From Natrarchaeobaculum aegyptiacum (GTDB taxonomy: Archaea; Halobacteriota; Halobacteria; Halobacteriales; Natrialbaceae), in the NCBI RefSeq assembly GCF_002156705.1, contig NZ_CP019893.1, forward strand, positions 2,480,001-2,544,000: a stretch of 64,000 bases of DNA, in the 5' to 3' direction. Below are positions 35,858 to 39,026 of this stretch, one piece after another. The translations under genes were made by a program, and so were the position numbers. Numbering within the stretch: the stretch's first letter is position 1; every line of letters begins with the position of its first letter. Below the pieces are notes generated by a model. That model worked only from the letters and a program-made list of their open reading frames with translations. It did not search any database and was not told the DNA's origin.

Positions 35858-35967
35858 GGTCACGATTGTATGAGCCACTGTCGACCCGACCGCAAGCGTA
35901 ACCACCAACCCGTTTGCCCGGCGAACGGACCGGTACGATTAAGTGTCCGTCACCTGCGCTCTTTCGT

Positions 35968-36195
35968 ATGAGTGGACGACCGCTGGACGTCCTCGAGGCG
36001 TCGCTTTCGGAACGGGTCACCGTACGACTCAAGAGTGGTGACGAGTACGTCGGCGAGCTGACGGGCTACGACCAGCACATGAATCTCGTCTTGGAGGACG
36101 TGGCGATTCCGGCCGGCGAGACCGCATCCGGGGAGGAGCAGATCGAAGACACAACGATTATACGCGGCGACAACGTCGTTTCGATCACTCCATGA
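35968..36195 (+). CDS. lsm: LSm/Sm-like archaeal protein
   Basis: 75 residues with Sm1 ([28 protein letters not shown]) and Sm2 ([10 protein letters not shown]) motifs; the loop between is acidic ([12 protein letters not shown]). It forms heptameric rings that bind U-rich RNA. Its stop overlaps the start of the L37e gene (ATGA). Upstream gattaagtg is a TATA-like box about 30 bp from the ATG. Confidence 0.95.
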
Positions 36196-36368
36196 CTGGC
36201 GCAGGAACTCCGAGCCAAGGAAAGAAGAACACGACGACCCACGTGAAGTGTCGTCGCTGCGGTGAGAAATCGTACCACGTCAAGAAGAAAGTCTGCTCGT
36301 CGTGTGGCTTCGGCAAATCGGCCAAGCGCCGCGAGTACGCCTGGCAGTCGAAAGCCGGCGACAACTGA
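36192..36368 (+). CDS. rpl37e: 50S ribosomal protein L37e
   Basis: 58 residues, starting [13 protein letters not shown]. The zinc ribbon is CRRC...CSSC, followed by [14 protein letters not shown], conserved in L37e. It is translationally coupled to the LSm gene by a 4-nt overlap; this lsm-rpl37e pair is widespread in archaea. Confidence 0.96.
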
Positions 36369-36495: not shown

Positions 36496-37701
36496 ATGAC
36501 CACGGCAATGGAGACGACCGACGCGTTCGTCGGCCTCGAGTGTCTCGACTGCGGGGAGACGGTCGACGCGGCCGACGCGAGCCACCGGTGTCCGGACTGT
36601 GGGGGACAACTCGACCCCCGGTACGACTACGATTCGATCGACCTCGACCGTGACGCCCTGACCTCCCGTCCGTTCGACTCGATGTGGCGCTACGCGGAGG
36701 TGCTGCCGTTTGCCCGCGAGACGGCGGTGACGACTCGTGAGGGGGCGACGCCGCTGGTCTCGTGTCCCACTCTCGCCGAGGAGTTCGGCGTCGAGCGCGT
36801 CCTCCTGAAAGACGAGGGCCGAAACTCGACGGGAACGCTCGCCGATCGCGGATTCTCGGTCGCAACGACGGCCGCCGTCCAGCACGGGGCTGACAGCGTC
36901 GCGCTCGCCTCGCCGGGTGATGGCGGCCAGTCGGCTGCGGCCTACGCTGCCCGGGCCGGACTCGAGGCGACGGCCTACCTGCCCTCCCGCTCTGGATTCT
37001 CTAACAAAGCGATGGTGAACGTTCACGGCGGCGAGATGAACGTCGTCGGCGGCCGGTACGACGACGCCGTCGGCGCTTACGAGGAGGGGCTCGACGAACA
37101 CGACGACTGGTACCCACTCCAGCCGTTCGAGACGCCCTACCGTCACGAGGGGGCGAAGACGCTCGTCTACGAACTGCTCGAGCAACTCGAGTGGGAGGTC
37201 CCCGACGCGGTCGTTTACCCCACCGGTCACGGCGTTGGACTCGTCGGTGGCTACAGCGGGGCGACGGAGTGTCGGGCCCTCGGACTGGTCGACGACCGAC
37301 CGGCGCTGTACGCCGCTCAGGCGTCGGGCTGTGCGCCGATCGTCGCGGCCGTCGACGACGACGCGGATACCCCAGCGCCCGTCGAGACGCCCGACACCAT
37401 CTGCGGCGAACTCGAGATTCCCGATCCCACCGGTGGGAAGCGGGTGCTCGAGGCGATCCGCGAGACCGGCGGCGATGCAGTTGCGACCGACGACCCGGAC
37501 GTCCTCGAGGCGGGAACACAGATCGCGATGAACGAGGGGCTCGAGGTTTCCCCGAGCGCGGCGGCGGCGATCAGCGGTGCGCAGGAACTGGCCCAACGCG
37601 GTGAGTGGAACGGCGACGAGACGATCGTACTCGTCAACGCCGCGGCGGGGAACAAGCAGGCCGACGTGCTCCGGAGTCACCTGATGAGTCAGGGAATATA
37701 G
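36496..37701 (+). CDS. Threonine-synthase-like protein lacking the PLP lysine (probable pseudoenzyme)
   Basis: 401 residues. An N-terminal zinc ribbon (C16, C19, C32, C35) precedes a fold-type II PLP enzyme body. Active threonine synthases have NPTGSFKDRG or NPTGTFKDRG; here residues 110-119 read NSTGTLADRG, so A116 stands where the Schiff-base lysine should be. The SGN substrate loop is PGD (residues 140-142), and the glycine phosphate loop is TGHGVG instead of TGGGVG. The reading frame is intact with normal codon use, so this is not simple decay. A regulatory or binding role is possible. The NOS gene follows 155 bp downstream on the same strand. Confidence 0.85.
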   Translation: MTTAMETTDAFVGLECLDCGETVDAADASHRCPDCGGQLDPRYDYDSIDLDRDALTSRPFDSMWRYAEVLPFARETAVTTREGATPLVSCPTLAEEFGVERVLLKDEGRNSTGTLADRGFSVATTAAVQHGADSVALASPGDGGQSAAAYAARAGLEATAYLPSRSGFSNKAMVNVHGGEMNVVGGRYDDAVGAYEEGLDEHDDWYPLQPFETPYRHEGAKTLVYELLEQLEWEVPDAVVYPTGHGVGLVGGYSGATECRALGLVDDRPALYAAQASGCAPIVAAVDDDADTPAPVETPDTICGELEIPDPTGGKRVLEAIRETGGDAVATDDPDVLEAGTQIAMNEGLEVSPSAAAAISGAQELAQRGEWNGDETIVLVNAAAGNKQADVLRSHLMSQGI

Positions 37702-37856: not shown

Positions 37857-39026
37857 ATGCACCAGCCGATCCCGGAGTACGACCCACAGGAGCTCTACCG
37901 GGAGGCGGAGGCGTTCGTCCGCCAGTGTTACACGGAACTCGAGAAGGAATCGGCAATCGAGCCCCGGCTCGAGACGATCCGCCGCGAGATCGCCGAGAGC
38001 GGTCACTACGATCACACCTTCGAGGAACTCGAGCACGGCGCGCGGATGGCCTGGCGCAACAGCAACCGATGCGTTGGGCGGCTCTTCTGGCAGTCACTCG
38101 AGGTGCTCGACCGGCGGGACTGCGAGACGCCCGCGGAGGTCCACGAGGCCTGCTGTGAGCACCTCGATCGGGCGCGAAATGGGGGCGATATCGTCCCGAC
38201 GATCTCGATCTTCGAGCCGATGATTCGCGGGCGACAGCGGGTTCGCATCTGGAACTATCAGTTGCTGCGCTACGCCGGCTATGCGGGTGGCGACGACAGT
38301 GACGTGGTGACCGGAGATGGCGACAGAACGCGTGCCGAAAACCCGGACGAAATCGTCGGCGACCCCGCGGAGGTGCCGATGACCCGGTACTGTCAGTCTC
38401 GTGGCTGGGAGGGCGACGGTGGCCGGTTCGACATCCTGCCACACGTGATTCAGGTCGGCGACGACGAGCCGGAACTGTTCGAGGTGCCCGACTCGGTGAT
38501 CGAGGAGGTCGAACTCAGCCATCCGGAGTACGACTGGTTCGCCGACCTGGACCTCCGGTGGTACGACGTGCCGGTCGTCTCTAACATGCGCCTCGAGGTC
38601 GGGGGCATTCAGTACACTGCCGCGCCGTTCAACGGCTGGTATCTCGCGACCGAGATCGGCGCGCGGAACTTCGCCGACACGGACCGGTACGATATGCTTC
38701 CCGAGATCGCCGATCGACTCGGGCTCGACACCGACGACGACCGGTCGCTGTGGAAAGACGAGGCGGTCGTCGAACTCAACCGGGCCGTCTTGCACTCCTA
38801 CGACGAGGCGGGCGTCCAGATCGTCGACCATCATACGGTCACCGACCAGTTCGCCCAGTTCGAGCGCAACGAGGAGGCGGCAGGCCGGGACGTGACCGGT
38901 GACTGGTCGTGGCTAATCCCGCCGGTGAGTCCCGCGACGACGCAGGTCTTCCACACGACCTACGACGACGAGATCAGGACGCCGAACTTCTTCTACCTCG
39001 AGCCGCCAGCGGCTATCCGGGAGTGA
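37857..39026 (+). CDS. nos: Nitric oxide synthase, oxygenase domain
   Basis: 389 residues, the size of bacterial NOS oxygenases. The heme-thiolate motif WRNSNRCVGR (C72) and the substrate motif PFNGWYLATEIGARNF (W261, E266) are intact, as are the WNYQLLRYAGY and SNMRLEVGGIQYTAAPFN strands. It oxidises L-arginine to NO and citrulline using tetrahydropterin/folate-type cofactor. There is no fused reductase, so electrons must come from a separate ferredoxin or flavodoxin partner, not found nearby. An acidic insertion lies at about residues 144-168. NOS is rare in archaea. Confidence 0.95.
   Translation: MHQPIPEYDPQELYREAEAFVRQCYTELEKESAIEPRLETIRREIAESGHYDHTFEELEHGARMAWRNSNRCVGRLFWQSLEVLDRRDCETPAEVHEACCEHLDRARNGGDIVPTISIFEPMIRGRQRVRIWNYQLLRYAGYAGGDDSDVVTGDGDRTRAENPDEIVGDPAEVPMTRYCQSRGWEGDGGRFDILPHVIQVGDDEPELFEVPDSVIEEVELSHPEYDWFADLDLRWYDVPVVSNMRLEVGGIQYTAAPFNGWYLATEIGARNFADTDRYDMLPEIADRLGLDTDDDRSLWKDEAVVELNRAVLHSYDEAGVQIVDHHTVTDQFAQFERNEEAAGRDVTGDWSWLIPPVSPATTQVFHTTYDDEIRTPNFFYLEPPAAIRE

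Follow-up and report, generated by a model that had tools for sequence, protein, structure and literature searches.

The window, the 64,000-nucleotide stretch of Natrarchaeobaculum aegyptiacum DNA analysed here, contains a gene for a threonine synthase (ThrC)-like protein whose open reading frame is open and intact over all 401 aa. The gene, its degenerate active-site motifs, and the neighbours that mark its locus are as follows (window coordinates):

35959..36368, forward strand: lsm and rpl37e, upstream neighbours marking the common Natrialbaceae locus (Pfam; synteny)
36496..37701, forward strand: probable ThrC-like pseudoenzyme gene, 401 aa (open reading frame and translation; PALP and NF006050 matches; AlphaFold2 model)
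36541..36602, forward strand: Cys4 zinc-ribbon-like motif, C16, C19, C32, and C35 (sequence)
36835..36852, forward strand: TLADRG (residues 114-119), degenerate PLP-lysine motif, TFKDRG in Lys-bearing orthologues (alignments)
36910..36924, forward strand: SPGDG (residues 139-143), degenerate SAGNA substrate/PLP loop (alignments)
37219..37239, forward strand: PTGHGVG (residues 242-248), degenerate PLP-phosphate loop, PTGGGVG when intact (alignments)
37663..37698, forward strand: C-terminal tail DVLRSHLMSQGI, kept in the family with or without the lysine (tail counts; model)

The gene has a GC3 of 0.83. Its codon at 36841-36843 (GCC) places Ala116 where ThrC has the Schiff-base lysine of the xFKDRG motif, S139-P140-G141-D142 stands in place of SAGN, and P242-T-G-H245-G-V-G in place of PTGGGVG, so that the SGN-loop Asn and the glycine-rich PLP-phosphate loop are missing as well. 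Substitutions are found at several separate PLP-site positions (F115L, K116A, N142D, A143G, G245H, and T382A). The motifs named in a preliminary description of this DNA (TLADRG, SPGD, GHG, and an intact Cys4 ribbon) were exact, as sequence and alignments confirm, and, judged from sequence, PLP anchoring has almost certainly been lost in this protein.

In sequence and predicted structure the protein nonetheless falls within the PALP fold and the threonine-synthase family. It matches Pfam PALP (PF00291) at 2.5e-60 and passes the cut-off of NCBIfam NF006050 "threonine synthase" (316 bits, cut-off 303); its score against TIGR00260 is 136, under the cut-off of 167.1. AlphaFold2 modelled it with a pLDDT of 96.7 and a pTM of 0.94, and its nearest matches among solved structures are threonine synthases, with Z up to 49. 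ThrC (EC 4.2.3.1; structures from Thermus, B. subtilis, and Arabidopsis) shares its fold over 325-390 residues (Z 41-49), is 23-34% identical to it, and has the same order of motifs. Unlike ThrC, it lacks the PLP lysine, the SGN-loop Asn, the phosphate-loop glycine, and the N1-side Thr, and the housekeeping ThrC of the window genome is another gene. A Haloferax Lys-less orthologue was modelled equally well (pLDDT 96.7, pTM 0.94), despite its lost zinc-ribbon cysteines.

Directly downstream lies an intact NO synthase oxygenase-domain gene (37857-39026, forward strand; PF02898, 1.5e-161). This neighbour is common to the loci of the same-genus relatives L011/L040/L014 and was not seen at this position in the other loci read.

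Two active-site states in one haloarchaeal family

We extracted about 250 homologous proteins from the class Halobacteria. A homologue is present in 124 of 125 Natrialbaceae genomes and, judged by E-values, in nearly all of 391 Halobacteria genomes. Among those checked, the exceptions are G247 and G286, with canonical-ThrC-like matches only, G349, a fragmentary genome with a split copy, and G356. With two TGA and one TAA in frame, the G356 copy (L204) is a genuine pseudogene, whereas the gene is otherwise near-universal.

Among 187 representatives, the lysine column holds K in 79, L in 32, T in 24, A in 23, V in 6, R in 5, D in 4, Y in 4, and a few other residues; across the family L, T, A, V, Y, R, D, G, F, I, H, M, and Q are found in place of the lysine. 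Twenty-three of the 78 sampled genera have Lys-bearing copies only, 42 Lys-less copies only, and 13 both. We scored 11 PLP-site features (F115, K116, S139, N142, A143, T243, G244, G245, G246, G248, and T382). The intact Lys-bearing group has all 11 in 68 of 68 members, and Lys-less members have 2-8. Comparison of the PLP sites and alignments revealed no compensating new lysine in the Lys-less group.

Four representatives, three from Natrinema (TSKDRG) and L156 (TVKDRG), carry a lysine within a degraded pocket (scores 8, 8, 8, and 6), and because of the three Natrinema sequences residual PLP binding in some members is conceivable. The Natrinema-type copies (genus g15; L016, L020, L035, L043, L223, and L232), which combine this lysine and TSKDRG with a GxG loop, are possibly intermediates or chance returns of the lysine. 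In a metagenome-assembled genome (L070) the lysine is replaced by asparagine (TCNDRG) and the PLP loop features checked outside the motif are all intact; the loss is either very recent or an artefact of assembly.

Every Natrialbaceae representative has all four cysteines of the Cys4 ribbon. Of the 40 Lys-less representatives of Haloferacaceae, 18 no longer have the ribbon (L103-L105, L107-L109, L112-L115, L117-L119, L121, and others), and Lys-bearing Haloferacaceae copies all retain it.

The Lys-bearing orthologues (NF006050; TFKDRG/SAGNAG/PTGGGVG) share loci and C-terminal tail with the window protein and are 62-76% identical to it within Natrialbaceae; they differ in that all PLP features are intact, although their own enzymatic activity is putative. 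A separate group of Lys-bearing paralogues (L208-L214; GQNPTNTFKDRG) is 38-45% identical, sporadic in several genera, and in some cases located on smaller contigs. The preliminary description derived the protein from threonine synthase, but the immediate ancestor belonged to a separate ThrC-like family and not to housekeeping ThrC. A sequencing error at 36838-36843 or a lone mutant, the two concerns raised there, is rejected because separate PLP-site positions differ and dozens of genomes show like changes.

Repeated decay of the lysine at shared loci

In Natrialbaceae, Lys-bearing and Lys-less copies are located at one locus, downstream of lsm and rpl37e (25 and 36 loci), and the same-genus relatives nearest to the window protein (L011/L040 and L014) have TFKDRG at this locus with the NO synthase gene downstream. 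Outside Natrialbaceae, the neighbours shared by both forms are a gene for a divergent FAD amine oxidase, one for a SirR-type repressor, or both, followed farther out by GDT1 and LysE genes; these four recur but point to no single pathway. In genomes with one Lys-less copy and another that is Lys-bearing and intact, any marker genes present are invariably next to the Lys-less one, and by the same rule those of G242 flank the degraded TVKDRG copy. The Lys-bearing and Lys-less forms are orthologues by synteny.

The two forms also share a C-terminal LRSHLMxQG tail, which is found in 98 of 110 Lys-less proteins, in 53 of 54 Lys-bearing proteins outside the extra copies, and in none of the 16 extra Lys-bearing copies. 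In the AlphaFold2 model of the window protein, the tail lies mostly within a confident helix ending at residue 398. Since it is kept irrespective of the lysine and absent from the extra copies, it is the strongest pointer to a second constraint unrelated to PLP chemistry. In L064 (Natrinema hispanicum) homology ends at about residue 376 and the conserved C-terminus is missing, as from a frameshift.

A first tree, computed with only narrow motif windows removed (LG+G4), united almost every Lys-less row in a single clade. When wider active-site windows were excluded and a mixture model was applied, the Lys-less rows were interspersed with Lys-bearing rows from the same families, and descent from one ancient Lys-less paralogue, or a single such clade, was rejected (p-AU 9.4e-9 for all Lys-less rows as one clade); we therefore attribute the first topology to convergence at relaxed sites. 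The parsimony minimum is 5, 6, or 7 state changes across three trees, and well-supported branches alone provide two independent Lys-bearing/Lys-less pairs, which leaves the independent-pairs test underpowered.

At genus level, a clade is the best fit for genus g9, which has both Lys and Ala. A clade of genus g1 with the window protein was not rejected (p=0.47), and the lysine loss in the window protein may therefore be recent or shared with other Natrialbaceae. Genus clades were rejected for g10 (p=0.01) and Natronorubrum (p=0.04), pointing to allele replacement and not fresh loss in these within-genus switches. Sliding-window DNA identity gave no usable signal of allele replacement, as the flanks aligned unreliably. 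Because of these two genera, and with only two pairs on well-supported branches, the number of losses is uncertain. Repeated decay of the lysine and nearby PLP-site residues, at the same places in the chromosome, is nevertheless shown. The K-to-A change, which the preliminary description considered as a clade marker, does not define one, since losses are repeated, many residues occupy the site, and same-genus relatives keep the lysine.

Selection on the Lys-less proteins and their remaining pocket

Close pairs (dS under about 0.15) have dN/dS values of 0.09-0.19 among Lys-less and 0.07-0.15 among Lys-bearing proteins, and the medians across all pairs that could be used are 0.200 and 0.204, respectively. 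The Lys-less proteins are thus maintained under strong purifying selection, like the Lys-bearing ones, which bears out the earlier view of a maintained gene. The window protein is accordingly a homologue of active enzymes without the essential catalytic residues that belongs to a selected and near-universally retained group, as pseudoenzymes do. Decay into a pseudogene is rejected by dN/dS and retention. We consider a decaying pseudogene or a sequencing artefact extremely improbable: the in-frame stops of the Haloferacaceae genome G356, the split copy of one fragmentary genome, and the lone metagenome-assembled K-to-N copy with other loops intact would fit, but reading frames are intact in hundreds of genomes and several Lys-less clades are deep in age.

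Positions conserved in over 90% of the Lys-less proteins include K105, D117, R118, R165, K171, N175, H177, R187, R216, D300, E307, D333, R393, and S394, and D106, E107, N110, G178, C279, T301, G304, G326, D390, L396, and M397 are also nearly invariant. PLP-loop sites are among those that differ most between the Lys-bearing and Lys-less groups. Mean column entropy is 1.55 in the Lys-less against 0.82 in the Lys-bearing group, which we count against the interpretation favoured below; such lower overall conservation is as expected of a less constrained protein.

It is very improbable that the protein is still a PLP enzyme, with the cofactor held non-covalently or another lysine in charge. Engineered lysine mutants can hold external aldimines (e.g., the TrpB K87T structure entry), and Lys105, Lys171, and Lys387 are conserved; these three are, however, no replacements because they are equally conserved in intact members, and the loops for the PLP phosphate, O3', and N1 are degraded along with the lysine. 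A new, PLP-independent catalysis in the old pocket could explain the strong conservation around it, but we judge this very improbable as well: the residue replacing the lysine varies freely among Lys-less proteins and variation extends to the loop residues, so that no new active site common to these proteins can be seen.

Candidate roles and threonine synthesis

We think it probable that the window gene encodes a pseudoenzyme of a near-universal haloarchaeal ThrC-like family, kept for a non-catalytic role that probably existed already in the Lys-bearing ancestor. The protein would fold like threonine synthase and form no internal PLP aldimine, and would therefore not catalyse PLP chemistry. 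If a second, non-catalytic role was in place in the Lys-bearing ancestor, and if selection maintained that role everywhere, catalysis could be dropped in many lineages. We are evenly divided on the broader proposition that a moonlighting ThrC-like protein is near-universal in Halobacteria, selected for its non-catalytic function, and that its PLP machinery was discarded on several independent occasions at one and the same locus.

Binding would be the likeliest form of this role, and "regulator or binding protein", the role given in the preliminary description, is a reasonable inference from the sequence. The protein might associate with another (e.g., an active ThrC-type enzyme) via its dimer surface and C-terminal helix and regulate or stabilise it, or it might sense a small phosphorylated or anionic ligand via retained Arg, Lys, and His residues; the choice between partner and sensor is speculative.

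A specific version of the partner form is that the Lys-less protein hetero-oligomerises obligately with an active PLP enzyme (e.g., canonical ThrC or the second ThrC-like protein) and has a stabilising or activating effect on it, for which LCB1/LCB2 and the dead DHS paralogue/DHS serve as models. We regard this as possible but rather unlikely. The fully retained predicted fold, the precedents of dead paralogues in PLP and other enzymes cited below, and the presence of a canonical ThrC homologue in 70 of 70 genomes checked (60-93% identical outside its own copy; lysine intact where read) would agree with it; however, the ThrC-like gene was not seen adjoining thrC in the loci read, and canonical ThrC evolves far more slowly.

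In the sensor form, the PLP-free pocket would bind an anion such as phosphate or a phospho-amino acid and signal its presence or buffer it. R216, R165, K171, N175, H177, and R187 are nearly invariant, and R216 aligns with Arg160 of Thermus ThrC, a substrate-phosphate ligand. Several of the retained residues may nevertheless be structural, the protein has no DNA-binding or output domain, and substrate-site positions 210, 220, and 245 are relaxed, and we consider a sensor unlikely.

Within the favoured interpretation, a pseudoenzyme kept for a non-catalytic role, the closest known parallels are the SPT subunit LCB1, the ODC antizyme inhibitors, and a dead DHS paralogue, described as catalytically dead homologues kept for complex formation or regulation (PMC2748086, PMC3794620, PMC3663545). 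Like the window protein, they are retained enzyme homologues without key catalytic residues or activity, but they have other folds and other paralogue histories. In the haloarchaeal family, unlike in these cases, intact and dead forms alternate at one orthologous locus, class-wide and with repeated loss. The usual view of a pseudoenzyme is of a paralogue that arose once, whereas this orthologous gene, near-universal in the class, repeatedly went from intact to disarmed. Synteny, tail, and purifying selection persist across the switches, so catalytic and non-catalytic constraint would be separable residue by residue. If the interpretation is correct, the family provides a natural series of before-and-after enzyme-pseudoenzyme pairs inside single genera, and whether moonlighting preceded the death of the enzyme becomes a testable question in the genetically tractable archaeon Haloferax volcanii.

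The window genome encodes a second, intact thrC, for which the preliminary description had suggested looking; this canonical protein has SFKDRG, ASTGNTS, and PVGNAGN. A third ThrC-like protein with an intact lysine is also present, with relatives in many other genomes. In a Haloferax-like genome, canonical thrC directly follows an OxsR-like TrmB gene near lpdA/pdh, and, since HVO_2970 is OxsR (PMC9426492), this neighbourhood suggests that the canonical gene is HVO_2969 thrC3. The Haloferax Lys-less gene sits between a FAD amine oxidase and SirR, annotated as HVO_0817 (PMC4300041) and HVO_0819 (PMC11349517), and is therefore probably HVO_0818. Both assignments rest on gene order and not on the H. 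volcanii sequence itself. We found no mention of HVO_0818 in the literature searched, and our searches on haloarchaeal threonine synthase yielded no report of the ThrC-like family. The "threonine synthase" annotations of the family, probably including that of HVO_0818, would be misleading. A transposon insertion mutant of HVO_2969 thrC3 does not grow on minimal medium, and growth is restored by Gly+Ser+Thr (PMC4300041); if both assignments hold, this auxotrophy despite a Lys-less paralogue indicates that the Lys-less protein is no substitute for ThrC.
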